Notes under the pieces: generated by a model
What the model saw: only the letters and a program-made list of their open reading frames with translations
What the model was told of the DNA's origin: nothing
Databases searched by the model: none
Program-made: the position numbers and the translations under genes
Shown: positions 3,898 through 60,997 of the stretch, piece after piece
Numbering within the stretch: the stretch's first letter is position 1
Layout: every line of letters starts with the position of its first letter
Origin: Actinomycetota bacterium
GTDB lineage: Bacteria; Actinomycetota; Thermoleophilia; Gaiellales; F1-60-MAGs149
Assembly (NCBI GenBank): GCA_009885805.1
Contig: VFJZ01000003.1
Coordinates: forward strand, 62,001 to 126,000
DNA length: 64,000 nucleotides
Direction of reading: 5' to 3'

Positions 3898-3918
3898 TCT
3901 CCCGAGCGGCCCGGGGCC

Positions 3919-4832
3919 TCACCGGACGAGGTCTGGTGTCGTCGTCCGCCAGGCGCCGCCCTCGAGGACCTGCTCACGGACGACACCCGCCACGTAGCGG
4001 CCGTCGCCGGGCCGGCCGCCGAGGCGGATCGCGCGCCAGGTCGTCGGCGTCGACTCGACGACGTAGAGCGGCGTCTTTAGCAGGAGCCCGCCGGTTGCCG
4101 GCGACGGGTCCCCGGGCTCGCCGTCTCCCGCGAGGAGCAGGAAGAACGCCGTCATGCCGGTGTACGTCGGTCGCTGCGCGTACGAGTCCTGGAGACAGTC
4201 GCACGGGTTGAGCCGTAGCCTGCCGCCGCCGATGTAGTCGCGCTCGAGGTGGATCTGGGCGCGAGCCGCGCGCATCGGATCGCCGGCGCGCCGGAACAGG
4301 TAGACCTGGGCGGCAAGCGTGCACGACTGCAGGTACGAGCGACCGGACCAGGCGACATCGCCGTTGGGGGCCTGCAGCGCGGCGAGTGCGCGTTCGGCAC
4401 ACTCGATCGGACGGCCGGCAAGGCGCATCGAGACCGTCGTCAGGACGTGGTACGCGAGTGGGTACGCCGGCGGGTCGCCGATCAGGCAGACGCCGCCCGG
4501 ACCGTCGAGGCGCGGCATGCCGTCGAGGATTCGCTCCGCCACGCTCGCGAACCGCTCTGGAACGGGCGCATGGGCGTCGGGTGGCGGCAGGATGCGACGA
4601 GTGAACGAATGCCCCGTCGGGCCAGACCGGGTCGGCCGCTCATGATCTGGGAGGCGCCGATCATCGCGGCCGCGTACCGGTCGTTGTCGGGGTTCACCGC
4701 GTACGTGCCGTTGGCCTTGGGTTTCCAGCCCGCGACCAGGTCGCTGCCGATCGCCGCGGGGGTCGCGGCGAACGTCGCCGGTGCCAGCGCCAGGACACCC
4801 GCCAGGACGGCAGCGGCGCTACTCGTCTTCAG
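3919..4832 (-). pseudogene. Putative secreted protein, apparently frameshifted near ~4620-4650
   Basis: 3' part is ORF 3919..4542 (-). An upstream frame reads LKTSSAAAVLAGVLALAPATFAATPAAIGSDLVAGWKPKANGTYAVNPDNDRY (signal-peptide-like) but switches frame around position 4640 into SGPTGHSFTRRILPPPDAHAPVPERFASVAERILDGMPRLDG. Could be pseudogene or sequencing error. Confidence 0.4.
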
Positions 4833-8717: not shown

Positions 8718-10127
8718 TCAGATCGGCGGGCGCGCACGGGCCCACGGCCGCACCCGCTCGAGCGCAGCGCCGATGCGCAGCGCCTCGTCGTCGCGTCCCC
8801 GGCGGGCGACGATCTGCAACCCGACCGGGAGGCCCGCGTCCGTGAAGCCGGCGGGCACGGACAGCGCCGGGCACTGGCTCGTGTAGTTGAACACCGCCGT
8901 CATGTCGAGTCCGTACAGCCGACCGTCGGCGCGCTGCGTGTACCACTGGTCGTCGTCCTCGCCCACCGGGCGTGCGGCCTGGCTCATCGTCGGACAGAGC
9001 AGCGCGTCGTAGCGCTCGAGGATCGCTGCGAGGCGCCTCCAGGCGTCGGTGCGGACGAACTCGAGTCGCTTGAAGTCGACCGCCGACATCGCGCGTCCAG
9101 CGTCCATGATCTTGAGGAGCTTCGGATCCATCTTCGGCCGGTACTCGCCGACGACGTGCCCGAAGATCGCCTCGAGGTAGACGCCCCAGTGCTCCGACCA
9201 GGCGTCGTTGAGCGCCCGCGTCCAGCCGAGGTCGACCTCCTCGACGATCGCACCGGCGTCGGCGAGCGCCGCGGCGGCGGCCCGCACCTCACGTTCCGTC
9301 TCGCGCTCGACCGCCCAGCAGCCGAGGTCGACGTCGAGCGCGAGGCGCATCCCCTCGACCGTGGTCGGCGTTGCACCGGACAGGTCGAGCGCGGGCAGGC
9401 TCATGATGTCGCGCTCGCTCGGGCCGCCGGCGACGTGGACGAACAGGCGCGCATCGTCGATCGTGCGGGCCAGCGGGCCGAAGTGGTGGATCGTGTCGAA
9501 CTGCGTCGGCAGGAAGTCGAGGGGGATGCGCCCGAAGCTCGGCTTCAGCCCGACCGTCCCTGACCACGACGCCGGGATGCGGACGGAGCCGCCCATGTCG
9601 GTCCCCTCCGCCAGCGGCACGCAGCCAGCGGCGACGGCGGCCCCTGACCCGCCGGACGAGCCGCCGGGAGACCGGCCCAGATCCCAGGGGTTGCGCGTGA
9701 TGCCCCAGAGCGGCGACTCCGTGAACGACGAGTAGGCGAACTCCGGCGTCGCCGTCTTGCCGACCATGATCGCGCCGGCGCCGAGGAGGCGCTCGACGAG
9801 CAGCGCCGACCGCTCGGGGACGTGATCCTCGAACGCGAAGGACCCCATCGTCGTGCGCTTACCGGCGGTCGGGGTGAGGTCCTTGATCGCGATCGGCACG
9901 CCGTGCAGCGGGCCGATCGTCTCGCCGCGAGCGACCGCCGCGTCGGCGGCCCGCGCGGCGGCGAGGGCCTCGTCGGGATAGGTGAAGACGAAGCAGTTGA
10001 GCTCGCCGTTGACCTCGTCGATTCGGGTCAGCGCGTTGCCGACGACCTCCTCGGCCGTGATCTGCCGGTCGCGGATGCGGGCCGCCGTGACGGTGGCCGG
10101 GGTGTACGCCAGTTCAAGGTCGCTCAT
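8718..10127 (-). CDS. Amidase (amidase signature family)
   Basis: GPLHGVPIAIKDL, GRSPGGSSGGSGAAVAAGCVPLAEGTDMGGSVRIPAS signature. Confidence 0.95.
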   Translation of the reverse strand: MSDLELAYTPATVTAARIRDRQITAEEVVGNALTRIDEVNGELNCFVFTYPDEALAAARAADAAVARGETIGPLHGVPIAIKDLTPTAGKRTTMGSFAFEDHVPERSALLVERLLGAGAIMVGKTATPEFAYSSFTESPLWGITRNPWDLGRSPGGSSGGSGAAVAAGCVPLAEGTDMGGSVRIPASWSGTVGLKPSFGRIPLDFLPTQFDTIHHFGPLARTIDDARLFVHVAGGPSERDIMSLPALDLSGATPTTVEGMRLALDVDLGCWAVERETEREVRAAAAALADAGAIVEEVDLGWTRALNDAWSEHWGVYLEAIFGHVVGEYRPKMDPKLLKIMDAGRAMSAVDFKRLEFVRTDAWRRLAAILERYDALLCPTMSQAARPVGEDDDQWYTQRADGRLYGLDMTAVFNYTSQCPALSVPAGFTDAGLPVGLQIVARRGRDDEALRIGAALERVRPWARARPPI

Positions 10128-11698: not shown

Positions 11699-13066
11699 GT
11701 GGCAGATCTGGAGCAGGCGATCCGGGCGTCGGGCGCCGCCTACGTGACGACGGTCGGCGTCGACTTCCTCGGCATCTGGCGGGGGAAGCGGCTGCCGGCC
11801 GCGCACGTCGTCGCGGCCGAGCAGGGGCACGGCGTCCCGTTCTCGGACGTGTTCTGGGCGAATACCGTCGCCGAGGACCTGATCGAACCGCCCGCCGGCC
11901 ACGTCGGGACGTTCCCGATCAAGACAACCGGCTTCCCCGACCATCACCTGCGCCTGGACGCCGCGACCTACCGCGCGGTGCCGTGGCTCGACGGCGAAGG
12001 GGTCGTGTTCGGCGACTGGCACGCCCCGGACGGCACGCCGTGGCGCCTCTGCCCACGGACCTGCCTCAAATCTGTGCTGAAGCAGGCGGCGGATCGCGGC
12101 CTGCTCGTGAAGATCGGCTTCGAGTGGGAGTTCTACCTGATCGATCAGCCGCTCGCCGAGATCGCGCAGTCCGGGTTCGGCCTCGATATGCGGCTCGGCC
12201 ACACCAGGCCGTACACGTATCACGGGCTCCGCGTCGCCCAGGACCGCGCCCTGCTGCAGAGCTACGTCGAGCCGCTGGAGGCCTCCGGGCTCGTCCTCGA
12301 GTCGCTCAACTGCGAGACCGGCGCCGGGCAGTACGAGCTGAACCTGCAGTACGACGAGGCGCTGCGGACGGCCGACAACGCCTTCCTGATGAAGCAGGCG
12401 GTGAAGACGATCGCCGCCGGGCAGGGTCGGACGGCGACGTTCATGGCGAAGCCGCACGAGACGTGGTCGGGCAACTCCGGGCATCTCCACCTGTCCCTCT
12501 GGAGTGCCGACGGCGCCGACAACCTGTTCGCCGCCGGTCCGGCGAACTCGCTCAATCCGCTGGCGTCCCAGGCCGTCGCCGGCCTGCTTGCGACGATGCC
12601 AGGTGCGATGCCGTTCTGCTGCCCGAACCCGAACTCCTACAAGCGCCTCGTCCCGTACATGTGGGGCTCGACGACGCTCACCTGGGGCCTCGAGAACCGG
12701 ACGGTCGGCCTGCGCGCGATCGAGTCCGGGGCCGGCGTCAATCGCATCGAGCACCGGCTGCCGGGCGGCGACTGCAACCCGTATCTGGCGATCACCGCTG
12801 CGGTCGCGGGGATGCTGCATGGCATCGACAACGGTCTCGAGGCACCGGCCCGCTACGACGGCGACGCCTACGCCGACGACTCGCTGATGCGTCTGCCGCG
12901 CGATCTTGATCGTGCGTTGGATGCCCTCGCCGACGACCGCGTGTTGCGGGAGTACATGGGCGCCGACCTCGTCGACCACTACCTGGTCTGCGCCCGCGCC
13001 GAGCTCGAGCATCACCGGCTGGCGGTGACCGAGTGGGAGCGGCGGCGGTACCTCGAGCTGACCTGA
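11699..13066 (+). CDS. Glutamine synthetase-like protein (probable gamma-glutamyl-amide ligase)
   Basis: GFEWEFYLID, NCETGAGQYELNLQY, KPHETWSGNSGHLHLSLW, NRTVGLRAIES, ANRIEHRLPGGDCNPYLA-like segment; GTG start overlapping puuD-like gene region. Confidence 0.9.
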   Translation: MADLEQAIRASGAAYVTTVGVDFLGIWRGKRLPAAHVVAAEQGHGVPFSDVFWANTVAEDLIEPPAGHVGTFPIKTTGFPDHHLRLDAATYRAVPWLDGEGVVFGDWHAPDGTPWRLCPRTCLKSVLKQAADRGLLVKIGFEWEFYLIDQPLAEIAQSGFGLDMRLGHTRPYTYHGLRVAQDRALLQSYVEPLEASGLVLESLNCETGAGQYELNLQYDEALRTADNAFLMKQAVKTIAAGQGRTATFMAKPHETWSGNSGHLHLSLWSADGADNLFAAGPANSLNPLASQAVAGLLATMPGAMPFCCPNPNSYKRLVPYMWGSTTLTWGLENRTVGLRAIESGAGVNRIEHRLPGGDCNPYLAITAAVAGMLHGIDNGLEAPARYDGDAYADDSLMRLPRDLDRALDALADDRVLREYMGADLVDHYLVCARAELEHHRLAVTEWERRRYLELT

Positions 13067-20395: not shown

Positions 20396-20487
20396 AGCAG
20401 TTTGCCGCTCTGCTAGTCAGCAGTTTTCCGTGCCTCTAGCAAGCAGTTTGCCGGCGTCCTCATCGGCACTCTGCCGGTGCTACGCCT
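20396..20487. repeat. Array of four 23-bp-period repeats upstream of the DUF4143 ATPase gene
   Basis: AGCAGTTTGCCG at 20396, AGCAGTTTTCCG at 20419, AGCAGTTTGCCG at 20442, GGCACTCTGCCG (9/12 match) at 20465; exact 23-bp spacing. Confidence 0.75.
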
Positions 20488-21625
20488 CGACCGCGACGCG
20501 TCGTCCGGCGTCGCCACCGGCAGCCGCGAGCCCGGGCCGATCGAGGCGAAACCGCGCCCAGTCGCCCGCCGGCCGCGCGCCCTCGGCGAGGTTCGCCAGC
20601 TGCTCGCCGATCGCGGGGGCGAACTTGAAGGCGTGGCCCATGCAGCCGGCGCCGATCACGATGTCCCCCGCGCGATCGATGATGAAGTGGTCGTCGGGCG
20701 TCGTCGTGATCACGCCGCACTCGGTCTGGATCGGGCCCGTCCGGAAGCCGGGGAAGTCACGGCGCACGCGGCGGACGAGTTCGAGCTCGAGCGCCATGTC
20801 GAGCGGGCGCGCGCGCAGGTCGCCGAAGTAGCGGGCGCGATCGATCGTCGCGAAGCCGAGCTTGTAGCCGACGCCGGGCGTGATCAGCCCGTACATCGCC
20901 TCCTCGGCCGACCGCGTCCGCTCCATCAGGCTCGGCCGGTCGGTGTCGTCGCCGAACGCACCCCGGAAGTACGACACCTGGGCGAGTCCGGGTTCGAGTG
21001 GTAGCTCCAGGCCGATCGGCGCGAGCAACTCGTTCGTCCACGGCCCGGCCGCCACCACGACGACGTCGGCGTCGATGCGCCGGCGCTGCGTGAAGACGCG
21101 CACGCCGCCGCCAGCCAGTCGCGTCAGCGCCGTCGCGCGCTCCTTGCCGCAGATCTCGGCCCCGCGCCGGGCGGCGAGGTCGCAGCAGGCGAGCAGGAGG
21201 TCGACGCAGTGGTTGACGCCGCCGTCGGGCTGGAACATCGCCGGCTGGTCGTAGCGCGCCCTGATCTCCGGGAAGATCGTCGCGATCCGGTCCGGCGTGA
21301 CGTCGACGTGCGGGACGTTCTCCGCGGCGAACGCGCGGGACATCGGCTCGACGACCGAGCCGAGATGGAGGATGCCGCGGCGCGTGTACAGCGTCCTGCC
21401 GCTGCGGGTCTGCAGGTCGAGATACAGCTCGAGCGCGCGCAGCGCGAGCCTCACGTCCTCGGGCGCGTTGTGTGAGAGGCGGAACGAGCGCAGGCCGAAC
21501 CCCGATCCACCCTGAACGTTCGGGATGCCGTAGCGGTCGAGCAGCACGACGGCATGACCGCGCTCGGCGAGCACCTGGGCAGCCGGCGCTCCCATCGCTC
21601 CAGAACCGATCACAACGACCTTCAT
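20480..21625 (-). CDS. FAD-dependent oxidoreductase, monomeric sarcosine oxidase (MSOX)/DAO-like; candidate N-substituted-glutamate oxidase
   Basis: VVVIGSGAMGAPAAQVLAERG dinucleotide fold; GGSGFGLRSFRLSHNAPEDVRLALRALELY; TECGVITTTPDDHFIID (Cys in the position of the covalent-FAD Cys of MSOX); GAGCMGHAFKFAPAIGEQLANL. Confidence 0.85.
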   Translation of the reverse strand: MKVVVIGSGAMGAPAAQVLAERGHAVVLLDRYGIPNVQGGSGFGLRSFRLSHNAPEDVRLALRALELYLDLQTRSGRTLYTRRGILHLGSVVEPMSRAFAAENVPHVDVTPDRIATIFPEIRARYDQPAMFQPDGGVNHCVDLLLACCDLAARRGAEICGKERATALTRLAGGGVRVFTQRRRIDADVVVVAAGPWTNELLAPIGLELPLEPGLAQVSYFRGAFGDDTDRPSLMERTRSAEEAMYGLITPGVGYKLGFATIDRARYFGDLRARPLDMALELELVRRVRRDFPGFRTGPIQTECGVITTTPDDHFIIDRAGDIVIGAGCMGHAFKFAPAIGEQLANLAEGARPAGDWARFRLDRPGLAAAGGDAGRRVAVEA

Positions 21626-21632
21626 CGTGGGC

Positions 21633-21666
21633 GATATTGACAGATCGTGGCCTGTAGTTCAATATC
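21633..21666. promoter_or_regulatory. Overlapping divergent sigma70-like promoters / inverted repeat operator
   Basis: GATATTGA-N18-TCAATATC inverted repeat. + strand: TTGACA-N17-CAATAT; - strand: TTGAAC-N17-CAATAT; both start codons lie close downstream. Confidence 0.65.
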
Positions 21667-21680
21667 TACGACGATTCTCT

Positions 21681-22355
21681 GTGACCGCGCACGAACAGGA
21701 GCTGACGGCGACGATTCACCACGCGCTTCGCGACGCGATCGTCGATGGCCGCCTGGCCCCGGACGAGCGCGTCAACCAGGACCGGGTCGCCCGCGAGCTC
21801 GGCGTTTCGAAGACGCCGGTGCGCGAGGCCCTGCGCTGGCTCGAGCGCGACGGCCTGGTGCGTCTGGAGCCGAACCGGGGCGCCTTCGTGACCGCGTTCA
21901 CCGATCACGACCTGTTCGAGATCTACGAGCTGCGCGAGCTGCTCGAACCCCATGCCGCGGCCATCGCCTGCGCTGTCGCGACGCGGGCTGACATCGCCGC
22001 GATCCGTGATCTGCGCGACCGCATCGCCGCCACCTGGACGGCCGATCCGATGGCCGCGTTCGAGCTCAACAAGCAGTTCCACGAGCGGCTCTGCGCGCCC
22101 TGTCGCAACGGCCTGCTGATGGATGTCCTCGGCGTCGTCTGGTCACAGCAGGCAGCGCTGCGGATCTTCACGCACTACGCGCGCGCCGGCGAGGCCTTTG
22201 CCGACCGCACCCACGCCGAGCACGGCACGATCATCGAGGCGTACGCGGCGCGCGACTCCGACGGTGTCCGCGAGCTCGTGCGAAACCACATCTCCGAGGC
22301 CCACGAGGCCACCGTTCGACTGCTGGCCGCCGAGCGGCCGGAGGAGGTTGCCTGA
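21681..22355 (+). CDS. GntR family transcriptional regulator (FadR/FCD type)
   Basis: LRDAIVDGRLAPDERVNQDRVARELGVSKTPVREALRWLERDGLVRLEPNRGAFV wHTH; FCD-like C-terminus; GTG start. Confidence 0.92.
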   Translation: MTAHEQELTATIHHALRDAIVDGRLAPDERVNQDRVARELGVSKTPVREALRWLERDGLVRLEPNRGAFVTAFTDHDLFEIYELRELLEPHAAAIACAVATRADIAAIRDLRDRIAATWTADPMAAFELNKQFHERLCAPCRNGLLMDVLGVVWSQQAALRIFTHYARAGEAFADRTHAEHGTIIEAYAARDSDGVRELVRNHISEAHEATVRLLAAERPEEVA

Positions 22356-23308
22356 TGTGCGGGATCGCGGGAATCCTGCTGCGCGAGACGGGCCCCGTGG
22401 GCGACTCGCTGGTGAAGATGTGCCAGGCGATGCGTCACCGCGGCGCCGACTCGACCGGCTTCGCCCTCTACGGCGAGCACGACGCGACGCGGCTGATCGT
22501 GCGGGCGCGACACCCCGACGCGACGCGCGCGTTCGCCGATACGGAGGCGATCCTCGCGGCGGTGCGCGAGCTGGGCGGCGACCAGCACGCCGAGGCGTCG
22601 TTCGACACGGCGGCCGGCGCGGCCGATCGCTTCATCCGCCTCGAGATCCGCTACGACGGCGACATCCGCCGGCTGGCGATCGCGATCGAGACGGCGGCGC
22701 AGGGGATCGAGATCCAGTCGATCGGCCACTCGCTCGAGATCGTCAAGGATGCCGGCGACGCGGCTTCGGTCGACGCCAGACACGGCATCTCCGCCTTCCG
22801 CGGCTCCCACGGTCTCGGTCACGTGCGGCTCGCGACCGAGTCGATCACGGCGGTGTCGTACGGGCACCCGTTCTGGGCCGAGCCGTTCCCCGACGTCTCG
22901 ATCGTCCACAACGGCCAGCTGACGAACTACTACACCCTCCGGCGCCTGCTCGAACAGGACGGCTTCCGCTTCCAGACCGGCAACGACTCGGAGCTGATCG
23001 CCGTCTACCTCGCCGACAAGATGTCTCGCGGCCAGACGTTCTACGAGGCCCTCAAGGACTCCGTCTACGAGCTCGACGGGTGCTTCGCCTACCTGCTCTC
23101 GATGCCCGAGGTGATCGGCTCGGCGAAGGACATGTTCGCGATCAAGTCGATCGTCGTCGCCACGGTCGGCAGCACCGTGGCGATGGCGACCGAGGAGCAG
23201 GCGATCCGCGCCGTCTACCCCGACGAGCTCGACGACACCCAGCATCCAGATCCGCGCAGCGTGTTCGTCTGGGAGCGCTCCGGCCGTGTCCTGCAGGAGA
23301 TCGTGTGA
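22355..23308 (+). CDS. Class II (Ntn) glutamine amidotransferase domain protein, GlxB/MgsA-like subunit
   Basis: Begins MCGIAGILL with catalytic Cys2; MRHRGADSTGFALYG; LGHVRLATES; SIVHNGQLTNYYTLRRLL; TGNDSELIAVYLAD. Confidence 0.9.
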   Translation: MCGIAGILLRETGPVGDSLVKMCQAMRHRGADSTGFALYGEHDATRLIVRARHPDATRAFADTEAILAAVRELGGDQHAEASFDTAAGAADRFIRLEIRYDGDIRRLAIAIETAAQGIEIQSIGHSLEIVKDAGDAASVDARHGISAFRGSHGLGHVRLATESITAVSYGHPFWAEPFPDVSIVHNGQLTNYYTLRRLLEQDGFRFQTGNDSELIAVYLADKMSRGQTFYEALKDSVYELDGCFAYLLSMPEVIGSAKDMFAIKSIVVATVGSTVAMATEEQAIRAVYPDELDDTQHPDPRSVFVWERSGRVLQEIV

Positions 23309-24006
23309 GCGAGGTCATCACTGCACCGGTCCTGCTCGACGCCGACGACGGACATCGTCTCAACCGCCGGATGCGCGACCTCGTCGATGCGGGCACCCGG
23401 GCGATCACCGTCACCAACCCGCGCAGCCGGCACAACCTCGGGGTCGGCCAGCACGGGCCCGTCACGATCACGTTCGCCGGATCGGTCGGCTACTACTCTG
23501 GCGGCCTCAATAACGGCGCCGAGATCATCATCGAGCGCTCCGCCGGCTGGGGCACCGGCGAGGCGATGAGCGCGGGCCGGATCGAGGTTCGTGGCACGTG
23601 TGCGCTCGGCACCGGCGCCTCGATGCGCGGCGGCACGATCGTCGTCCGCGGCAACTGCGGGCCGCGCACCGCGGCGAACATGAAAGGTGGCGCCCTGATC
23701 GTCGAGGGGAACGTCGGCTACCTGGCTGGCTTCATGACGCACGCGGGCGATCTGATCGTCTGCGGCGACTCGGGCGAAGCGCTCGGCGACTCGCTGTGGG
23801 CGGGGAACATCTGGGTGGCCGGCACGATCGCCGGTCTCGGCGCCGATGCGAAGGTGGTCGAGACGACCGACGAGGAGTCCGCGCGGATCCACGGCCTGCT
23901 GCGGGCCGAGGGCATCGACGGCACGTTCGACTTCAAGCATGTCGTCGCCGAGCAGAAGCTCTGGTACTTCGACGCGCGCGACCCGGAGGCCTGGCTGAGG
24001 ATATGA
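23305..24006 (+). CDS. GXGXG-domain protein, GlxC/MgsB-like subunit (glutamate synthase alpha C-terminal domain)
   Basis: GSVGYYSGGLNNGAEIIIERSAGWGTGEAMSAGRIEVRGTCALGTGASMRGGTIVVRGNCGPRTAANMKGGALIVEGNVG repeat pattern; GTG start overlapping preceding stop. Confidence 0.88.
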   Translation: MSEVITAPVLLDADDGHRLNRRMRDLVDAGTRAITVTNPRSRHNLGVGQHGPVTITFAGSVGYYSGGLNNGAEIIIERSAGWGTGEAMSAGRIEVRGTCALGTGASMRGGTIVVRGNCGPRTAANMKGGALIVEGNVGYLAGFMTHAGDLIVCGDSGEALGDSLWAGNIWVAGTIAGLGADAKVVETTDEESARIHGLLRAEGIDGTFDFKHVVAEQKLWYFDARDPEAWLRI

Positions 24007-25346
24007 GCGACCACGGCTACACGCAGGGGCGGTCCCACATCTGGACCTCCGAGACGATCCGCGACATCCACGCGAAGGCCGAACTCGGTCGGTACCAGAT
24101 CCGCGGCTTCTCGACCTTCCGCAAGTTCCCGAGCTGGGACGACCTGGTGTTCCTCCCGGCGGTGATGACGCGGCTGCCGCTCGAGGGGTACCGGGAGCAC
24201 TGCGAGACGAAGACGGTGATCGGCGGCGGCAAGCCCGACCTCGTCGCCCGGCCGCTCGAGCTCGACATCCCCGTCTACCTCACCTCGATGAGCTTCGGCG
24301 CGCTGGGCGCGAACGCGAAGATGGCGCTTGGCAAGGGGTTCACCGCCGCCGGCTCGGCCTCCTCGACCGGCGAAGGCGGCATGCTCGACGAGGAGCGCGC
24401 GGCCGCCTCCAAGCTGATCTACCAGATGACGCCGTCGCGCTACGGCCTCGATCTGGAGCATCTGCGGAAGGCCGACGCGATCGAGGTCGCGCTCGGACAG
24501 GGCGCGAAGCCGGGCACCGGCGGGCTCTTGCTCGGCATGAAGATCTCCGAGAAGGTCGCGAAGATGCGGTCGCTGCCGCCTGGCGTCGACCAGCGCTCCT
24601 GCGTCCGCCACCCCGACTTCCTCGGTGCGGACGACCTGCAGGTCAAGCTGGAGGAGTTGCGCGAGGCGACCGACTACCAGGTGCCGATCTTCCTCAAGCT
24701 GGCTGCCTGCCGGGTCGAGTTCGACATCAAGATCGCCGTCAAGACGGGCTGCGATGCGATCCTCCTCGACGGCGCCGAGGGCGCGACCGCGGCCGCGCCG
24801 GAGTACCAGCTCGACAACTGCGGCATCCCGCTGATCGCGTCGATCCGGACGGCGCGACGCGCGATCGAGGATCTCGGCATGAGCGGCAAGGTGCAGCTGG
24901 TCGTGTCCGGTGGCATTCGCAACGGCGTCGACGTGGCGAAGTGCCTCGCGCTCGGCGCAGACGCGGTCGCGATCGGCACGTCGGCGCTGATGGCACTCGG
25001 CTGCAACTCGATCCAGTACGAGGACGACTACGCGGCGCTCGGCACCGCGCCCGGCGCGTGCCACCACTGCCACACCGGCCGTTGTCCGGTCGGTATCACG
25101 ACTCAGGACCCGGTGCTCGAGGCGCGTCTCGACCCCGAGGAGGGCGGCCGCCGAGTCGCCAACTTCCTGCGTGCAACGATGATGGAGCTGACCGGCGTCG
25201 CCAAGTCGGTCGGCAAGAAGAACGTGCACAACCTCGAGCCGGAGGATCTCAGGGCGACATCGCTCGAGGCCTCGGCCTTCGCGGGCGTCCCGCTCGCCGG
25301 CGTCGAGTGGACCGTTGGACCCGAGCTGTTCGGAGGTGGCAGATGA
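24003..25346 (+). CDS. FMN-binding glutamate synthase domain protein, GlxD/MgsC-like subunit
   Basis: TSMSFGALGANAKMALGKG, GEGGML, GQGAKPGTGGLLLGMKI, GAEGATAAAPEY, VVSGGIRNGVDVAKCLALGADAVAIGTSALMALGC, CHHCHTGRCPVGITTQDP (Fe-S cysteines). Confidence 0.92.
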   Translation: MSDHGYTQGRSHIWTSETIRDIHAKAELGRYQIRGFSTFRKFPSWDDLVFLPAVMTRLPLEGYREHCETKTVIGGGKPDLVARPLELDIPVYLTSMSFGALGANAKMALGKGFTAAGSASSTGEGGMLDEERAAASKLIYQMTPSRYGLDLEHLRKADAIEVALGQGAKPGTGGLLLGMKISEKVAKMRSLPPGVDQRSCVRHPDFLGADDLQVKLEELREATDYQVPIFLKLAACRVEFDIKIAVKTGCDAILLDGAEGATAAAPEYQLDNCGIPLIASIRTARRAIEDLGMSGKVQLVVSGGIRNGVDVAKCLALGADAVAIGTSALMALGCNSIQYEDDYAALGTAPGACHHCHTGRCPVGITTQDPVLEARLDPEEGGRRVANFLRATMMELTGVAKSVGKKNVHNLEPEDLRATSLEASAFAGVPLAGVEWTVGPELFGGGR

Positions 25347-26683
25347 AGTACGACGACGCCGCGGCGGTGCGGGCCGCGGAGCTCGTGAGCGAGCATGACG
25401 TCCACACGGTCGAGTGCGCGTTTCCCGACTCGTGGGGAGCGCTGCGCGGCAAGCGCGTGCCGTCCAGTCAGTTCGCGAACGTCGCGCGTGGCGGCTTCTC
25501 GCTCGCCAACGCCGCTTTCAGCTGGGATCCGCTGTGCGGCATCTTCGAGCTCGACTTCGCGAACGCCGAGACCGGCTTCCCCGACATGATCTGCCGGCCC
25601 GATCCGTCGACGTTCCGGATGCTGACGTGGCGTGACGGCACGGGCCTCGTGATGTGCGACGCGACCGACGTGCATGACGCCACGCCGGTGCCGCTCGACC
25701 CGCGTCACATCCTGCGGACGGCGGAGCGGATGCTCGCCGAACGTGGCTACACGGTCCGGGTCGCGACCGAGCTCGAGTTCTATCTGTGCGACGAGAGTTG
25801 GACGCCGCTCTACCCCGACATCCAGTGCTACTCGATCACGAAGGGCGCCGAACTGGAGCACGTCATGGTCGACGTCCGCCGCAAGCTGGAGGCGTTCGGC
25901 ATCGTCGTCGAGGCGTCGAACACGGAGTACGGCCCGGCGCAGGTCGAGATCAACGTCAAGTACGGCTCGCCGCTCGAGGTCGCCGACAACACGTCGCTGC
26001 TGAAGTACGCCGTCAAGGAGATCGCCCGCCAGCACGGGACGCGGGCGACGTTCATGTCGAAGCCGTTCAAGGGCTTCTCGGGCAACGGCACGCACCTGCA
26101 CGTGTCGCTGTGGGACTCGTCCGGAGCGAACGTCTTCGCGACCAACGACCTCGACTCGGGCTTCGCGCGCAACTCACTGATGCGTCGCTGCGTCGCCGGG
26201 CTGCTCGTCCACCAGCCCGAGCTGTCAGCGGTCGCATCGCCGACCATCAACGCCTACAAGCGCTTCGAGGACCACTCGTTCGCGCCGACCCACGTCAACT
26301 GGGGCGGGGACAACCGCGGCGTCGCGATCCGCTGCGTCACCGACCACGGCACGGCGACGCGCATCGAGGTCCGCACCGGGTCGGCCGACGCGAATCCGCA
26401 CCTGCTGATCGCCGGTCAGCTGGCGGCGATCTGCGACGGGCTCGACACGGCTCATGAGCTGCCGCCGATGTGTGAGGGCAACGCCTACGCGCCCCAGGAC
26501 CGGCCGAAGATGCCACGGACGCTGCAGGACGCGATCGGCTGTTTCCAGGCCGGCGGGCTGATGCGCCGGGCCTTCGGCGACGTGTACGCGAACAACGTCG
26601 TCTCGCTCCTCCAGAACGAGGTGGACGAGTTCGGCCAGCAGGTTACCGAGTGGGAGAAGACCCGCTACATGGAGGTGTCGTAA
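25343..26683 (+). CDS. Glutamine synthetase-like protein, probable gamma-glutamyl-(alkyl)amide synthetase (GmaS/GlnA-like)
   Basis: ELEFYLCDE, NTEYGPAQVEINVKYG, MSKPFKGFSGNGTHLHVSLW, NWGGDNRGVAIRC, TRIEVRTGSADANPHLLIA; immediately follows the three GOGAT-type subunits. Confidence 0.9.
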   Translation: MKYDDAAAVRAAELVSEHDVHTVECAFPDSWGALRGKRVPSSQFANVARGGFSLANAAFSWDPLCGIFELDFANAETGFPDMICRPDPSTFRMLTWRDGTGLVMCDATDVHDATPVPLDPRHILRTAERMLAERGYTVRVATELEFYLCDESWTPLYPDIQCYSITKGAELEHVMVDVRRKLEAFGIVVEASNTEYGPAQVEINVKYGSPLEVADNTSLLKYAVKEIARQHGTRATFMSKPFKGFSGNGTHLHVSLWDSSGANVFATNDLDSGFARNSLMRRCVAGLLVHQPELSAVASPTINAYKRFEDHSFAPTHVNWGGDNRGVAIRCVTDHGTATRIEVRTGSADANPHLLIAGQLAAICDGLDTAHELPPMCEGNAYAPQDRPKMPRTLQDAIGCFQAGGLMRRAFGDVYANNVVSLLQNEVDEFGQQVTEWEKTRYMEVS

Positions 26684-26973
26684 TGGAGCTTGCCCGCGTC
26701 GTGGGGCAGGCGATGGCGACCGTCAAGGACGACGGTCTCCGCGCCGCGAAGCTCCTGATCCTGGTGCCGTGCGGTGCGGACGGCCTCGGTGAGGGGGACC
26801 GCTACGTCGCCGTCGACACGGTCGGCGCCGGCGAGCACGAGATCGTCCTCGTCGCGCGTGGCTCGGCCGCGCGGGCGACGGACCGCACGAAGGATGCCCC
26901 GACGGACGCCGCCATCATCGGGATTCTCGATTCGGTCGCCATCGGCGGCGAGACAACGTACCGCAAGGACTGA
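26683..26973 (+). CDS. BMC-P shell vertex protein (EutN/CcmL family)
   Basis: 96 aa; MELARVVGQAMATVKDDGLRAAKLLILVP...GDRYVAVDTVGAGEHEIVLVARGSAAR...DAAIIGILDSV, the canonical EutN/CcmL pattern. Confidence 0.92.
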   Translation: MELARVVGQAMATVKDDGLRAAKLLILVPCGADGLGEGDRYVAVDTVGAGEHEIVLVARGSAARATDRTKDAPTDAAIIGILDSVAIGGETTYRKD

Positions 26974-26982
26974 GGAGGAAGC

Positions 26983-27306
26983 ATGGCCAGAAGCACCCGC
27001 TTCGCAGCGGACAGCCTGCAGGCGCTCGGCATGGTCGAGACGCGCGGCCTCGTCGGCGCCATCGAGGCGGCCGACGCGATGCTGAAGGCGGCGAACGTCC
27101 GCCTGATCTCGAAGGAGCACGTCGGTGGCGGTCTCGTCACCGTCATCGTCCGTGGTGACGTCGGCGCCGTCCGCGCCGCCACCGACGCGGGCGCCGAGGC
27201 TGCCGCGAAGGTCGGCGAGTTGGTCTCCGCGCACGTCATCCCGCGCCCGCACGAGGACGTCGAAGCGATCCTGCCGCCCTCGGTGGAACCCGCCGCGATC
27301 GGTTGA
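26983..27306 (+). CDS. BMC-H shell hexamer protein
   Basis: [77 protein letters not shown], canonical BMC domain. Confidence 0.95.
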
Positions 27307-27314
27307 TCTGACGG

Positions 27315-28577
27315 GTGTCCGATCTCGCCGCAGCCATCGCCGCCGAAGTCGGCGGCGCAGCGGTCGCCCCTCCGCCCACCGGCAGGGGGAGCGATCCGCT
27401 GGCGGCTGCGATCGAACGGGAGATCGGTGGAGCGTTGGGGCCAGGCCCCAACGCTCCACGCCCAGGCGCCGGCCGCGTCCGTGTCGCCGTCATCGGTGAC
27501 GAGGGCGTTGCCGCCGCCAGTGCCGGCCACCTGGCGCTGCTCGGCTTCGACGTCGCCTGGACGTCGCCCCGCTCGGCCGCGCTGGCGCCCTTCGCGAACG
27601 GCGTCGAACTGGTCGGACTCGGGACGGGCCGGCCGCAGATCGTGCAGAGCCTCGACGCGGCCATTCGGGGCCGTGATCTGATCCTGCTCTGCTGCCACGC
27701 GACGGAGCACGCGGCCTACGCCGCGCTGCTCGCCGCCGTTCTCGCCGACGGCCAGGTGGTCGTCCTGTCGCCCGGACGCACCGGCGGTGCCCTCGAGTTC
27801 GCCGCGGTCCTCCGCTCGCACTGCTGCTCGGCCCGAGTCGTCGTCGGCGAGACCGAGACCGCCGTCTACACGCCCGCCGGCCGCGGACCCGGGCGCATCG
27901 AGATCCTGGTCGAGAAGGACCAGATCCGCGCTGCCGCCTTCCCCGCAACCGACAACGGCGCGCTGCTCCAGGTCCTGCGGCAGCTCTACCCGCAGGTGGC
28001 GGAGGCCGAGAACGTCCTCGACACCTCGATCAACAACGTCGGCGGCGTCGTGCATCCGGCGGCGATGCTCCTCAACTCGTACGCGACGGAGCTGGCTGCG
28101 GCTGGCCAGCCGCTCGTCTACTACCGCGACCAGGTCAACCCCACGCTCGCGAACCTCGTGATGGAGCCGCTCGACGCGGAACGCGTCGCCGTCGGCAAGG
28201 CGTTCGGGCTGCGTACCGTGCTGTCGTTCAGGGAGTGGTCGCTGGCCTGTTTCGGCCAGGCATCGGCCTCGATCCGCGACACCGTGGCGTCGAATCCATC
28301 GTACGCCGGTTTCGGAGCGCCGCAGACGCTGCTCGCGCTCGGGTTCGTCAACGATGAGGTGCCGAACTCGCTGGTGCCACTCGCCGAACTGGGCCGGCTC
28401 GCCGGCGTGCGGACGCCGATGACCGACGCGATCATCGACCTCGCCGCGGCGATGCTGCAGGTCGACTTCCGACGCCACGGCCGCACCCTGGCCCGGCTCG
28501 GGCTGGCTGGCCGCGATCTCGCCGCCTGTCTCGAACACGTCAACACCGCACGAACGCCCGTGCCGATCGGAGTCTGA
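27315..28577 (+). CDS. NAD(P)-dependent opine/octopine dehydrogenase-family enzyme with tandem N-terminal encapsulation-peptide-like helices
   Basis: Rossmann VRVAVIGDEGVAAASAGHLALLGFDVAW; opine-DH-type NVGGVVHPAAMLLNSY (conserved HP); N-terminus MSDLAAAIAAEVGGA...SDPLAAAIEREIGGAL then Pro/Gly linker. Confidence 0.82.
   Translation: MSDLAAAIAAEVGGAAVAPPPTGRGSDPLAAAIEREIGGALGPGPNAPRPGAGRVRVAVIGDEGVAAASAGHLALLGFDVAWTSPRSAALAPFANGVELVGLGTGRPQIVQSLDAAIRGRDLILLCCHATEHAAYAALLAAVLADGQVVVLSPGRTGGALEFAAVLRSHCCSARVVVGETETAVYTPAGRGPGRIEILVEKDQIRAAAFPATDNGALLQVLRQLYPQVAEAENVLDTSINNVGGVVHPAAMLLNSYATELAAAGQPLVYYRDQVNPTLANLVMEPLDAERVAVGKAFGLRTVLSFREWSLACFGQASASIRDTVASNPSYAGFGAPQTLLALGFVNDEVPNSLVPLAELGRLAGVRTPMTDAIIDLAAAMLQVDFRRHGRTLARLGLAGRDLAACLEHVNTARTPVPIGV
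27427..27459. repeat. Perfect 33-bp palindrome (16-bp arms, 1-nt centre) inside the opine-dehydrogenase-like CDS
   Basis: GTGGAGCGTTGGGGCC-A-GGCCCCAACGCTCCAC. Confidence 0.9.
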
Positions 28578-28580
28578 GCA

Positions 28581-30230
28581 ATGGCCGACGTCCAGCGATC
28601 GATCGCCGAGGCCGGCGAGCTCGCGATCCAGGCGCACTCCGCCGCGCTGGCGTGGGCCGAGGCGACCCAGGCCGACGTCGACCGCGTCACCCAGGCGATG
28701 GCCGACGCCGGGCACAACGCAGCCCGCGAACTCGCCGAACTGGCGCACCGCGAGACGGGCTACGGGCGCGCCGACCACAAGACGTTCAAGAACATCTTCT
28801 GCACCCGTCGCTACCTCGACGGCATCCGCCACATCCCGACGGTCGGGGTCATCGCCAGCGACCCCGCCCGCGGCGTGACTGAGATCGCGGAGCCGGTCGG
28901 CGTCGTCGCCGGGCTCGTGCCGGTCACGAACCCGACGGCGACCACACTGTTCTACGGGATCGCGTGCGTCCGCGCCCGCAACGCCGTGGTCAACGCGCCG
29001 CATCCCCGCGCCGTCGAGACGATCGTGACGACTGCGCGGCTGCTCGACGAGGCTGCGACGCGCGCCGGCGCGCCGCCGAACCTGATCACGGCGATGACGG
29101 AGGTCTCGCTCGAGGGGACGCAGGCCTTGATGGGGCACTACCGCACCGATCTGATCCTGGCGACGGGGTCGCGGCCGATGGTCCTCGCCGCCTACTCGTC
29201 GGGCAAGCCGACGTACGCCGTCGGCCCGGGCAACTCGCCGTCGTGGGTGCACCGCTCCTGCGCCGACCTCGGCGAGGCGGCCGCGGGGATCCTCGCCTCG
29301 AAGACGTTCGACAACGGGACGGCCTGCGCGTCCGAGCAGGCCGTGATCTGCTGTTCGCCGATCTCGTCGCAGCTCGAGACCGAGTTCGCAGCTCGTGGCG
29401 CGTACTTCTGCACTGAATCAGAACAGGAGCAGTTGTCACGTCTGCTCTTCCCTGGCGGGCCCGGCACGGCGTTCAACGTCGAGACCGTCGGGCAGTACGC
29501 GACGCGCATCGCCGAGCTGGCAGGGCTGAGCGTTCCGCCGGGAACGCGGGCGCTCGTCGTGCGGCCGGCCGGCGTCGGCCGGGAGCATGCGCTCTCGCAC
29601 GAGCTGCTCTGTCCGGTGCTGAAGTGGTATCCGGTGGCGACGGCCGAGGACGGCCTCGCGACCGCGACGGCGTTGCTCCGCTACGGCGGCGACGGCCACA
29701 CGGCCGCGATCTGGGCCGAGGATCAGGCGATGATCGCGCGGTACACCCGCGTCCCGGCCTACCGGATCTGCGTCAACAGCCCGACGCTGTTCGGCGCGAT
29801 GGGCTTCACCACGGGCTTCGTCCCGTCGTTCACGCTCGGTACCGGCACGATCGGCGGCGCCATCTCGTCCGACAACATCGGGCCGCAGCACCTGATCAAC
29901 CGCAAGCGCGTCGGGGTCGTGCAGCGCAACTGGCGGGAGTCGGGGGTGGCCGATGTGGTGCCTGGCTCCGGAGCGACACCGCAGGTGTCCGTGGAGGTGC
30001 CTGGCACCAGATCGGCCTCACCGCAGGTGTCCGTGGAGGTGCCTGGCACCAGTCCGGCCACCGCGAGCGCGACCGCCCATCTCGCTCTCCCACCGCTCCC
30101 CGTCGCGCAGGCCGCCCTGATGGCGACCGCCGGCCAGTCCGTCTCTCCGCAACCCGCCTTCCGCCCCGGTACGACACCCGACATCGAGACGATCGTGCGT
30201 GAGGCGATCGAGGAGGTCATCGCCCGATGA
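28581..30230 (+). CDS. CoA-acylating aldehyde dehydrogenase (EutE/PduP/SauS-like) with C-terminal linker and encapsulation-peptide-like helix
   Basis: PTATTLFYGIACVRARNAVVNAPHPRA, FDNGTACASEQAVI (catalytic Cys), TLGTGTIGGAISSDNIGPQHLINRKRV; low-complexity linker then terminal PDIETIVREAIEEVIAR. Confidence 0.92.
   Translation: MADVQRSIAEAGELAIQAHSAALAWAEATQADVDRVTQAMADAGHNAARELAELAHRETGYGRADHKTFKNIFCTRRYLDGIRHIPTVGVIASDPARGVTEIAEPVGVVAGLVPVTNPTATTLFYGIACVRARNAVVNAPHPRAVETIVTTARLLDEAATRAGAPPNLITAMTEVSLEGTQALMGHYRTDLILATGSRPMVLAAYSSGKPTYAVGPGNSPSWVHRSCADLGEAAAGILASKTFDNGTACASEQAVICCSPISSQLETEFAARGAYFCTESEQEQLSRLLFPGGPGTAFNVETVGQYATRIAELAGLSVPPGTRALVVRPAGVGREHALSHELLCPVLKWYPVATAEDGLATATALLRYGGDGHTAAIWAEDQAMIARYTRVPAYRICVNSPTLFGAMGFTTGFVPSFTLGTGTIGGAISSDNIGPQHLINRKRVGVVQRNWRESGVADVVPGSGATPQVSVEVPGTRSASPQVSVEVPGTSPATASATAHLALPPLPVAQAALMATAGQSVSPQPAFRPGTTPDIETIVREAIEEVIAR
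29977..30052 (+). repeat. Tandem repeat, 42-bp period (34-bp identical core x2) within the aldehyde dehydrogenase linker
   Basis: CACCGCAGGTGTCCGTGGAGGTGCCTGGCACCAG at 29977-30010 and 30019-30052; contains palindromes GACACC-GCA-GGTGTC and GGTGCC-T-GGCACC. Confidence 0.9.
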
Positions 30231-30853
30231 GCAGCACAACCCCGTTCTCGATGCGCGCCTACGCCTACATCGATTCGATGCAGCCGGAGTTCGCCGCCTA
30301 CGTCGGCGCGACGGTGCAGGGGTCGCCGCCCGTGGCGGGCATGGCAGAGCTGTGGATCGAGGTCGCCCCGGCCAACGAGGCCTTCCGGCTGATGGACGTC
30401 GCCCTGAAGGCGGCCGATGTCCAGCCGGCGACGCAGTACATCGAGCGGGAGTTCGGCCTGCTCGAACTGCACTCGTGGAGCCAGTCCGAGGTGAAGGCGG
30501 CCGCCGACGCGATCTTCGCCGTCACCGGGCTGTCCGAGAACGACCGCGTCCGCCCGACGATCGCCTCGCAGCAGGTGATCACCAACGTCGACCCGTTTCA
30601 GGCGCAGCTGATCAACAAGATGCGCCGCGGCTCCCTGCTCGTCCCCGGGCAGACGCTGCTGATCATGGAGGTCGAGCCGGCCGCCTACATCACCCTGGCG
30701 GCGAACGAGGCTGAGAAGGCGGCACCGATCTCGCAGGTCTACGTCTCGAACGTCGGCCGTTTCGGGCGCTACTTCGCGGCGGGGAACGACTCCGAGATCG
30801 AGGCCGCGCGCCTGTCCGCCGTGGCGGCGATCGAGGCCGCCGGCCGCTCCTGA
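30227..30853 (+). CDS. BMC-T shell protein (tandem BMC domain)
   Basis: 208 aa; two BMC-like halves: ...AELWIEVAPANEAFRLMDVALKAADVQPATQYIEREFGLLELHSWSQSEVKAAADAI... and ...GQTLLIMEVEPAAYITLAANEAEKAAPISQVYVSNVGRFGRYFAAGNDSEIEAARLSAVAAI. Confidence 0.88.
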   Translation: MSSTTPFSMRAYAYIDSMQPEFAAYVGATVQGSPPVAGMAELWIEVAPANEAFRLMDVALKAADVQPATQYIEREFGLLELHSWSQSEVKAAADAIFAVTGLSENDRVRPTIASQQVITNVDPFQAQLINKMRRGSLLVPGQTLLIMEVEPAAYITLAANEAEKAAPISQVYVSNVGRFGRYFAAGNDSEIEAARLSAVAAIEAAGRS

Positions 30854-31038
30854 TGGCGAACTCGCTCCTCGACCCGGCTCGTTCGGCCCGGCTCGCGGAG
30901 CAGTCTCGTGTGCGCGGAATCGTCCGTCGGATGCTGTGGGAGCGTTATCCGGCGCACGCCTCGCCGCGGATCGTGGAGCGCGTCTGCCGGCTCGTGTTCC
31001 TGCGGCTCGGCATCGACGGCGAGGGCCGCAGCCGGTGA
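30853..31038 (+). CDS. Small hypothetical protein (61 aa) in BMC operon
   Basis: ATG overlaps BMC-T stop; stop overlaps next GTG; basic amphipathic sequence MANSLLDPARSARLAEQSRVRGIVRRMLWERYPAHASPRIVERVCRLVFLRLGIDGEGRSR. Confidence 0.6.
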   Translation: MANSLLDPARSARLAEQSRVRGIVRRMLWERYPAHASPRIVERVCRLVFLRLGIDGEGRSR

Positions 31039-32144
31039 CGGTCGTCGGCGTGATCGGTGCCGGCATGGTCGGCTCCTCGACGGCGATGCGGATCGGCGAG
31101 GCGCACCTCGCCTCGCGTATCGGCATCGTCGACGTGCGCGAGGGTGTCGCCCGGGCGATGGCGCTCGACATCGGGCAGGCGCTCCCCTCGCTCGGCTCGG
31201 ATGCCCGCGTGGTGGCCGGCTGGGAGGGGATCGAGGGAGCCGCCGTCGTCGTCATGACCGCCGGTCTGCCTCGCGGTCCCGGCCAGAGCCGGGCCGATCT
31301 CCTCGCCGACAACGGCCGCATCGTCGTCGACTGCTGCCGGCAGATCCGTGACCGGGCGCCCGACAGCGTCGTGATCGTCGTCACGAACCCACTCGACGAG
31401 ATGACGTCCCTCGCTCAGCGGGTGCTCGGCTTCCCTGCGACGCGGGTGATCGGGATGGCCGGCACGCTCGACTCGGCGCGGTTTCGCGCGTTCATCGCGG
31501 AACGCCTCGGCGTTGCGCCGACCAGCGTGGTGGCGCTCACCCTTGGCTCGCACGGCGAGACGATGGTGCCGGTCCCGCGCCTCTGCACGGTCGACGGCAA
31601 GCCACTGCCCGAGTTGCTGCCCGCGGCCGAGATCGAGGCGCTCGTGCAGCGCACGCGCGACGGCGGCGCCGAGATCGTCCGGCTCCTCGAGCGCGGCTCG
31701 GCCTGGTGGGCGCCGAGTGCCGCGATCCTCGACCTCGTGCGGGCGATCGTGTGTGACGAGCGCTCGGTGCATCCGGTCTGCGCGATGTGCCGCGGCCAGT
31801 TCGGCATCAGGAACACGTATGTCGGCGTGCCGGCCCGGCTCGGCCGCGCCGGCGTCGTCGAGATCGTCGATCCCGGTCTCAAGCCGGACGAGGTCGCCGC
31901 GCTGCGCCTCGCCGCCGAGCAGGTGGCCGCGCGCGTCGCGGACCTCGGCGGCGTCCTCGGTGACGATGCTGACGAGCGCACCTCGGCGCCCGAGGCTGCC
32001 GAGGCGCAGCTGCGGGTCGGCGTACGCGACCTCGCCTACGCATCGCGCGTGCGTGCCGCGGCCCGGCGGGAGCTCGCGCGGCGCGGTCAGCTGCACCGTC
32101 TCGAGGAGGTCGTGCAGGCGGCGCTGCGGCGCACGGGCGCGTAG
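31035..32144 (+). CDS. Malate/lactate dehydrogenase family protein with C-terminal extension
   Basis: VVGVIGAGMVGSSTAMRIGE, MTAGLPRGPGQSRADLLADNG, VTNPLDEMTSLAQRVLGFP, RVIGMAGTLDSARFR, GSHGETMVPVP; ~54-aa tail ends LHRLEEVVQAALRRTGA. Confidence 0.9.
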   Translation: MTVVGVIGAGMVGSSTAMRIGEAHLASRIGIVDVREGVARAMALDIGQALPSLGSDARVVAGWEGIEGAAVVVMTAGLPRGPGQSRADLLADNGRIVVDCCRQIRDRAPDSVVIVVTNPLDEMTSLAQRVLGFPATRVIGMAGTLDSARFRAFIAERLGVAPTSVVALTLGSHGETMVPVPRLCTVDGKPLPELLPAAEIEALVQRTRDGGAEIVRLLERGSAWWAPSAAILDLVRAIVCDERSVHPVCAMCRGQFGIRNTYVGVPARLGRAGVVEIVDPGLKPDEVAALRLAAEQVAARVADLGGVLGDDADERTSAPEAAEAQLRVGVRDLAYASRVRAAARRELARRGQLHRLEEVVQAALRRTGA

Positions 32145-59664: not shown

Positions 59665-60997
59665 AACACCAGCGATCCCGACCGGCCGCGTGCGGGTCGA
59701 GATCCCCGACACCGACGGCAATCTGCGCGGCAAGTACGTCGCCGCGTCGAAGCTCGCGAAGGGCAAGGGCGCCACCGTCTCCGACGTGTTCTACGTGCTG
59801 ACGGTGCGCGACGACGTCTTCGAGGCTCCTCTCACGGGCGTCGCGACGGGCTTCCCCGACGTGATCGGGATGCCCGACTTCTCGACGCTTGTACCGGTGC
59901 CGTGGGAGCACGACCTGTCCGCGGTGATCGTCGACATGCAGACGAAGCAGCGGACGCCGCTCGAGGTCGACCCGCGCCTGCAGCTGCGGAAGGCCGAGGC
60001 CCGCTGCGCGGAGATGGGCTTCGAGGCGCGAGTGGGCGTCGAGTACGAGCTGTACCTGTTCCACGACGACGAGGCGGGCGACGCCTCGCTCCGTGCGAGC
60101 CGGCTTCGCGAGTTGCGCTCCGTCGGTCGCGAGTGGCAGGCCTACTCCCTCGTCCGCTTCGCGGACATGCACGACTTCATCGCGGACTGTGACGAGAAGC
60201 TCCGCGGCTACGGTGTCGATCTCGAAGTGTGGTCGACGGAGCTCGGCTTCGGGATGATCGAGACGGCCACCACGCCGCTGCCGCCGTTGCAGGCGGCTGA
60301 CGCCGCGGCCCGGCTGAAGCTCGGGCTCAAGGAGATCGCAAGGCGGCACGGTCTCGTCGCGACGTTCATGGCGAAGTGGGATATGACGTCGTCGGGCTCC
60401 TCCGGGCACGTGCACCAGTCGCTGCTGCGGGACGGTAGGAACGCGTTCTGGGGCGGCGAGATGGACACGCTGTCGGAGACCGGCCGGCACTACCTCGGCG
60501 GCCTGATCGCCGGTGCGCGGGAGCTGTCGGCGTTCGCCTCGCCGAACGTCAACTCGTACCGTCGGCCGTCACCGGAGCTGTGGGCGCCGACGAACGCCTC
60601 CTGGGGGTGGGACAACCGGCAGGCGTCGATCCGCGCGATCACACTCGACGAGGGCTCGGCGCGCCTCGAGTACCGCCGCCCCGGCGCCGACCTCAATCCC
60701 TACCTCGCCATCGGCGCCTGTCTCGACTCCGGGCTGCACGGCATCCGCAACCGCATCGAGCCGCCGGCCGCCTCGGTCGGGCCGGCGTTCGACGACACCT
60801 CGCTGCCCGACTTCCCGAAGACGCTGCACGAGGCCGCGGACGCCCTCGACGGCTCCGTGCTCGCGCGCGAATGGTATGGCGACGCGTACGTCGACCACTA
60901 CGTCATCTCGCGCCGGGCCGAGGCGGACGTCGTCCACAAGATCGCGAACGCGCAGGTGCCGGACTACGAGATCGCGCGTTACTTCGAGATGTCGTGA
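59657..60997 (+). CDS. Glutamine synthetase-like protein
   Basis: [84 protein letters not shown]. Confidence 0.9.

Follow-up and report, generated by a model that had tools for sequence, protein, structure and literature searches.

We analyzed a 64,000-nucleotide stretch of an Actinomycetota genome (Thermoleophilia, Gaiellales; contig VFJZ01000003.1, positions 62,001 to 126,000; hereafter the window) in which shell genes of a bacterial microcompartment (BMC) lie among genes for glutamine synthetase-, glutamate synthase- and opine dehydrogenase-like proteins. The genome comprises 3.56 Mb in 101 contigs and is 95% complete, and the window has a GC content of 72%. Twelve plus-strand genes occupy 21681-32144, with adjacent genes overlapping by 1-4 bases or lying 3-9 bases apart (Table 1). 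They encode a GntR/FCD regulator, three subunits resembling the split N-methylglutamate synthase MgsABC, a glutamine synthetase (GS)-like ligase, BMC-P, BMC-H and BMC-T shell proteins, an opine-dehydrogenase-family enzyme (OpDH), a CoA-acylating aldehyde dehydrogenase (AldDH), a 61-aa protein, and a malate/lactate-dehydrogenase-family protein (MDH). The genes named in a preliminary description of this DNA are all present and in frame as a near-contiguous operon, with a MSOX-like flavoenzyme gene divergent from it, as described; the regulator had gone unmentioned, the 61-aa gene had been missed, and the MDH start, given as 30936, is most likely a GTG at 31035 instead.

Table 1. Features of the operon and its divergent neighbor, in window coordinates.
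Feature	Position	Strand	Basis
DAO/MSOX-like flavoenzyme, divergent, accessory not core	20480..21625	-	Pfam DAO
GntR/FCD regulator, first operon gene, probable operon regulator	21681..22355	+	Pfam GntR + FCD
MgsA-like class-II glutamine amidotransferase, MCG.. Cys nucleophile	22355..23308	+	Pfam GATase_6; 33% to Paracoccus alcaliphilus MgsA-type
MgsB-like GXGXG subunit	23305..24006	+	35-39% to MgsB/GlxC proteins; FwdC-type GXGXG match
MgsC-like FMN glutamate-synthase-domain subunit, proposed N-alkylglutamate synthase core	24003..25346	+	Pfam Glu_synthase
GS-like ligase, proposed gamma-glutamylamide synthetase	25343..26683	+	Pfam Gln-synt_C; under every NCBIfam cut-off
BMC-P shell vertex protein	26683..26973	+	Pfam EutN_CcmL 2.6e-27 (PF03319, over cut-off)
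BMC-H shell hexamer	26983..27306	+	Pfam BMC 3.3e-30 (PF00936, over cut-off)
OpDH, opine-dehydrogenase family, proposed encapsulated signature enzyme	27315..28577	+	Pfam Octopine_DH
OpDH N-terminal encapsulation-peptide-like helices, residues 2-13 and 28-37, flexible linkers	27318..27425	+	AF2
CoA-acylating AldDH, Pro/Ala-rich linker, C-terminal encapsulation-peptide-like helix	28581..30230	+	TIGR02518, CASEQ catalytic Cys
BMC-T shell trimer, CcmP-like, two BMC domains	30227..30853	+	NCBIfam CcmP model 235 bits, under equivalog cut-off 340
61-aa protein, amphipathic-helix domain, possible adaptor or cargo peptide	30853..31038	+	homologues in G015 and G168
MDH, malate/lactate-dehydrogenase family, C-terminal helix tail, proposed NAD+ recycler	31035..32144	+	closest solved structures are malate dehydrogenases

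The operon is not a chance assembly, because it recurs in the same order in two relatives and its gene set reappears in six further metagenome-assembled genomes (MAGs). In G015, from another genus of the same family, OpDH is 72%, MgsC 91% and BMC-T 88% identical to the window proteins, and no MDH was found adjoining the operon; in G168, from another family of the same order, OpDH is 45-49% and MgsC 78% identical, and an extra BMC-H gene is present. The regulator (71% and 52% identical in G015 and G168) and the 61-aa protein (68% and 48%) keep their places in both. Scanning an OpDH alignment against 84,980 species genomes recovered 80 loci, and OpDH, GS, MgsABC, shell and acylating AldDH genes occurred together in eight of the 11 best matches (L033-L040). 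Two of the eight, L033 (G015) and L034 (G168), are the loci just described, and the window brings the total to nine, spread over three NCBI-labelled groups. Hosts of the eight are Thermoleophilia, Acidimicrobiia, and MAGs of Thermincola, Firmicutes, Desulfovibrio and Deltaproteobacteria; close BMC-bearing kin of the window genome are MAGs labelled Actinomycetes and Thermoleophilia. In the six MAGs beyond G015 and G168 the same gene set appears in shuffled order; since gene order differs by lineage, the genes have been kept together despite rearrangement. The linkage of the glutamate synthase/GS block to shell genes is thus conserved across nine loci and several phyla, as a neighborhood survey had been expected to reveal if the preliminary description was right.

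This linkage has clear boundaries. The remaining three of the 11 best matches (L041-L043) have no shell genes, and OpDH-scan loci ranked below them (at most 41% identity) showed neither a shell gene nor MgsC. In a phylogenetic tree, the nine BMC-linked and three shell-free OpDHs form one fully supported clade, within which the shell-free proteins branch beside those of L037 and L038. Among 399 genomes of the class, 28 contained a BMC-domain match, 25 of them over the cut-off, and the other BMC loci in these genomes were mostly of different types without Mgs genes, which argues that the Mgs-shell linkage is specific. No BMC-linked OpDH beyond those already known was found among 397 genomes of the phylum. 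A family whose genomes are small (f16) often carries an OpDH relative, and the loci examined there contain no Mgs, GS or shell genes.

What sets the BMC-linked OpDHs apart is their N-terminus. All nine open with a short encapsulation-peptide-type helix, after which comes a linker rich in Pro, Ala, Ser and Gly (as in MNNTEIASIVGSVINELQ of L037, EKIDSIVKAVVEELGRRG of L040 and DFNALVDRIVEELEAR of L036); scored by eye, such a helix is present in 0 of 72 unlinked homologues, a few of which have uncertain start codons. The window copy has two such helices (residues 2-13 and 28-37), which an AlphaFold2 (AF2) model renders as separate helices with low-confidence linkers; the catalytic domain, which begins near residue 56, is modelled well (mean pLDDT 86). 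Pooled mean hydrophobic moments exceeded those of shuffled sequences for the OpDH tags (p = 0.01), the MDH tail (0.02) and the 61-aa protein (0.003); tests of single tags were mostly non-significant, so the weight rests on the pattern of presence and absence in OpDH. Because the helix accompanies every linked and no unlinked copy, OpDH is very probably both shell cargo and the signature enzyme of the compartment. By sequence, the AldDHs of the window, G015, G168, L035, L037 and L038 end in a helix after a Pro-rich linker, and that of L040, a EutE-type enzyme, has an N-terminal helix instead. The C-terminal tail of MDH is kept in G168 and L035 and is absent from the MDH of a second BMC locus described below. 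GS and MgsABC are probably cytosolic, since they begin where their families begin and no tag was seen on them.

Other terminal features accompany these proteins. A short two-helix domain occurs both as the 61-aa protein and fused to the C-terminal end of MDH. In L039 and L040 it is longer, with an extra segment bearing a TPLARERA-type motif that is also present close to the PduL N-terminus in L037 and L038. A Cys-containing C-terminal tail such as GGKCAESGVCRMFGFYR is found on the OpDHs of L024, L035, L036, L039 and L040, and is absent from the shell-free OpDHs and the window copy.

The cytosolic half of the locus resembles the N-methylglutamate pathway of methylotrophs. MgsA, MgsB and MgsC are all present, in order, with 33, 35 and 54% identity to their counterparts in the N-methylglutamate operon of Paracoccus alcaliphilus, and across the MgsC-type proteins of Paracoccus and Aquabacterium the identity to MgsC is 54-56%. 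The GS-like ligase retains its metal-binding and catalytic Glu residues, but the FDGSS (D50/S53) and YEAP (E327) features seen in the genome's canonical GlnA, which is encoded separately (L113), are missing, as they are from the GmaS-type ligase of the P. alcaliphilus operon. Residues of the D50/S53/E327 type form the ammonium pocket of GS, and the BMC-linked ligase, like GmaS, lacks this pocket. It is nevertheless no GmaS orthologue: identity is 27%, it falls in a separate clade, and it scores 237 bits on TIGR03105 against a cut-off of 469.6. The ligases of L039 and L040 form a third clade, distinct from both the window type and GmaS, and the amine used may therefore vary between lineages. 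Matches of GS and MgsC in the PDB identified no substrate.

Related genes are numerous in this genome. It contains 16 GS-like genes, four of them in the window including the BMC-linked one (the others at 12047-13051, 57129-58109 and 59966-60973), and because most of the 16 lack the canonical ammonium-pocket residues, their sequences suggest that the organism makes wide use of amine glutamylation. In loci from anaerobes, MgsC-like proteins with ferredoxin-like N-terminal extensions were recognized by sequence (L037 16816-18231, L038 11786-13201, L039 7599-9023); in L037 and L038 the extended protein is a second copy beside a normal MgsC. Elsewhere in the window, an amidase (8718-10127, minus strand) is 74% identical to one near the G015 BMC operon, and a hydantoinase A/B pair lies further upstream (11-3897, plus strand); these are possible suppliers of amines or amides.

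OpDH combines a Rossmann domain with an Octopine_DH helical domain (PF02317, 2e-30), and its nearest solved structure, both by sequence (2e-84) and by fold (TMt 0.89), is 1bg6, the N-(1-D-carboxylethyl)-L-norvaline dehydrogenase CENDH. The two share full-length homology, and the catalytic His region is conserved, with H247 invariant and aligned to the 1bg6 His; OpDH differs in its N-terminal helices and in its linkage to GS, Mgs and shell genes. Its genomic partners are informative as to its product. In the shell-free G102 loci (L026/L042), an aldehyde:ferredoxin oxidoreductase gene comes after GS and an untagged OpDH, two further genes of this kind lie nearby, and MgsA and MgsB are divergent. 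The EutE-type AldDH of L040 is unrelated to that of the other loci, as if the acylating step had been kept while its enzyme was swapped. The GS-Mgs-OpDH unit is thus linked to three unrelated kinds of aldehyde consumer (type I acylating AldDH, EutE-type AldDH and ferredoxin-linked oxidoreductases), which is the best evidence we have and implies that OpDH releases an aldehyde. The preliminary description had allowed either OpDH or the MSOX-like enzyme this role; we retain the former and reject the latter as the aldehyde-forming core, its gene being present in only two of nine loci (the window and G015). Separately, a shell-free OpDH relative in L041 adjoins PylD- and PylC-like pyrrolysine-synthesis genes (2100-4138, minus strand), hinting at methylamine metabolism.

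Downstream steps can be read from the remaining enzymes. The AldDHs of all nine loci belong to acylating families for C2 and larger aldehydes: that of the window scores 438 bits on TIGR02518 (cut-off 620) and has as its nearest solved structure the acetylating acetaldehyde dehydrogenase 5j78, and those of L037 and L038 score above the cut-off of TIGR02518, an acetaldehyde dehydrogenase model. The phosphotransacylase (PTAC) PduL was found in L037 (by Pfam) and L038 (by sequence), together with PduS-like proteins, which were also recognized by sequence in L039 and L040; PduL and PduS would complete a classical metabolosome core in L037 and L038. Since MDH occurs in the Actinomycetota loci and PduS in those of anaerobes, the two may be alternative routes of NADH recycling. 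Amino-acid or amine permeases accompany L035, L036 and L039, and a gamma-glutamyl-GABA-hydrolase-like protein accompanies L040.

Collectively, these observations make it fairly probable that the locus encodes a primary-amine metabolosome with an opine-type dehydrogenase as its signature enzyme. In the cytosol, the GS-like ligase would use ATP to couple glutamate, at its gamma-carboxylate, to an amine, R-CH2-NH2, and MgsABC would move the amine from the resulting gamma-glutamylamide onto 2-oxoglutarate to give N-(R-CH2)-glutamate; both steps are modelled on homology to the N-methylglutamate pathway. This secondary amine would then enter the BMC-H/P/T shell, where tagged OpDH would oxidize it with NAD+, and hydrolysis of the imine would yield glutamate and R-CHO, a step whose nature and direction we infer from genomic context, tag and fold. 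AldDH, held in the lumen by its C-terminal helix, would convert R-CHO to acyl-CoA with CoA and NAD+, as its family membership predicts; NADH would be recycled by MDH in Actinomycetota or PduS in anaerobic lineages, and PduL, where present, would make the acyl-phosphate. Encapsulation of the cargo is predicted from the tags, as seen in the sequences and the AF2 model. The AldDH family favors a C2 amine, such as ethylamine, as our best guess. The same route had been proposed from the window, and it accords with each independent line of evidence: the cross-phylum linkage, the shell-linked OpDH tag, the loss of the GS pocket, the similarity of MgsC to the protein from an established N-methylglutamate operon, the shell-free version with aldehyde:ferredoxin oxidoreductase, and the two loci with PduL and PduS.

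Several points weigh against this proposal. The substrates of characterized opine dehydrogenases are N-(carboxyalkyl)amino acids rather than N-alkylglutamates. The known loci number only nine and come almost entirely from MAGs; the window locus lacks a PTAC; the C-terminal AldDH tag is not universal, none being seen in L036 and L039, and the pooled hydrophobic moment of the AldDH tails did not exceed that of shuffled sequences (p = 0.19). Because the window AldDH scores under the TIGR02518 cut-off, its aldehyde may be other than acetaldehyde.

Three other functions could be imagined for these genes. OpDH might recycle NAD+ for AldDH inside the shell by working reductively, joining a 2-oxo acid to an amino acid, as opine dehydrogenases of marine invertebrates do, with the aldehyde coming from another, unrecognized enzyme. 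A cargo tag would suit this role, which is that of alcohol dehydrogenase in other metabolosomes, and Pfam revealed no alcohol dehydrogenase of the usual kind in the window locus. We nonetheless regard it as unlikely: MDH or PduS is already available for NADH, no other aldehyde-forming enzyme is conserved, the obligatory linkage to GS and MgsABC would go unexplained, and shell-free OpDH sits with ferredoxin-linked aldehyde oxidoreductases, which yield no NADH. Alternatively, the GS/glutamate synthase-like block might simply assimilate ammonia from an amine-degrading BMC, given that EUT-type metabolosomes release ammonia and that split glutamate synthases resemble GOGAT. The loss of the ammonium pocket, the separate canonical GlnA, and the lack of any ammonia-lyase, aminotransferase or amine oxidase in the conserved set make this quite improbable.

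A third possibility is a methylamine pathway in which N-methylglutamate is oxidized to formaldehyde inside the shell. It would account for the resemblance of MgsABC, and PylC and PylD, the neighbors of the untagged OpDH relative in L041, accompany methylamine methyltransferases; yet every AldDH belongs to an acylating family for C2 and larger substrates, and the Sox-like heterotetrameric N-methylglutamate dehydrogenase is absent from the locus, where the only nearby candidate is the monomeric DAO/MSOX-like gene, so that formaldehyde chemistry is improbable here. The proposed amine metabolosome likewise departs from the methylotroph pathway (GmaS, MgsABC and a Sox-like dehydrogenase), with which it shares split MgsA/B/C beside a ligase lacking the ammonium pocket: the ligase belongs to a non-GmaS clade, an NAD-type OpDH replaces the flavin heterotetramer, and a shell and acylating AldDH are added.

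The locus was also compared with described metabolosomes. EUT and PDU compartments share the BMC-H/P/T shell, CoA-acylating AldDH and tagged cargo, and with L037 and L038 also PduL and PduS, whereas genes for a B12 enzyme or ammonia-lyase are missing from the window locus, where we propose that OpDH generates the aldehyde from an N-substituted glutamate. The RMM1 and RMM2 loci of Mycobacterium and Rhodococcus, for which amino-alcohol degradation has been proposed, are likewise actinobacterial and amine-related, with a GntR regulator and, as in the window form, an AldDH without PTAC; their description includes an aminotransferase, a phosphotransferase, a short-chain dehydrogenase and a permease, and no GS, Mgs or OpDH (PMC4207490). 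None of those four RMM components is among the twelve operon genes. In the PVM metabolosome for fucose and rhamnose, a malate/lactate-dehydrogenase-family protein has been proposed as an NADH-recycling core enzyme (PMC4207490), the role we propose for MDH, in a locus that differs in lacking a class II aldolase and in its substrate logic.

Within the literature searched, the locus apparently represents an undescribed type of BMC metabolosome. The main texts of the 2014 (PMC4207490) and 2021 (PMC8217296) BMC surveys make no mention of GS, glutamate synthase or opine dehydrogenase, and full-text literature searches combining microcompartment and pathway terms returned nothing relevant. Novelty is probable rather than proven, because the supplementary locus catalogue of 2021 lies outside the scope of these searches, and the earlier label 'undescribed' extends no further than that scope. 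There is a modest chance that the locus is already among the unnamed MIC, MUF or BUF types of that catalogue, so that only its function would be new: 68 types are distinguished there, several without an assigned function, with locus diagrams placed in the supplement, beyond the main text (PMC8217296). The silence of both main texts on the three enzymes speaks against this, and so does the probable age of most of the host MAGs, which, judging by their accession prefixes, presumably postdate the catalogue's March 2020 data.

A second BMC type, without OpDH, came to light at L028 (G000 contig C77, ~90.6-104.6 kb), L025 (G168), L157 (G213) and L159 (G215). It combines shell genes with MgsABC, GS or both, and also has a DUF3830/cyclophilin-like protein, an unannotated but conserved protein with a tag-like N-terminus in L028, and an AldDH that is EutE-type in G000 and classical non-acylating in L025, L157 and L159. 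This type may be another undescribed glutamyl-amine metabolosome.

For the system as a whole, we lean, if only slightly, toward an undescribed BMC class in which an encapsulated opine-type dehydrogenase frees an aldehyde from the N-substituted glutamate of a cytosolic glutamyl-amide/N-alkylglutamate pathway, in which lineages swap GS clades and AldDHs, and which is joined in the same genome by an OpDH-free type with MgsABC and GS. Known metabolosomes obtain their aldehydes from B12 enzymes, glycyl-radical enzymes, aldolases or, as proposed, aminotransferases. If our reading is correct, an NAD-linked opine dehydrogenase would be a new kind of signature enzyme, and its N-terminal cargo tag could be used for engineering. 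Shells would also be tied to the methylotroph pathway in which amines are tethered to glutamate, and loci otherwise listed as 'function unknown' would gain a proposed class of substrate: primary amines, kept tethered to glutamate until inside the shell.

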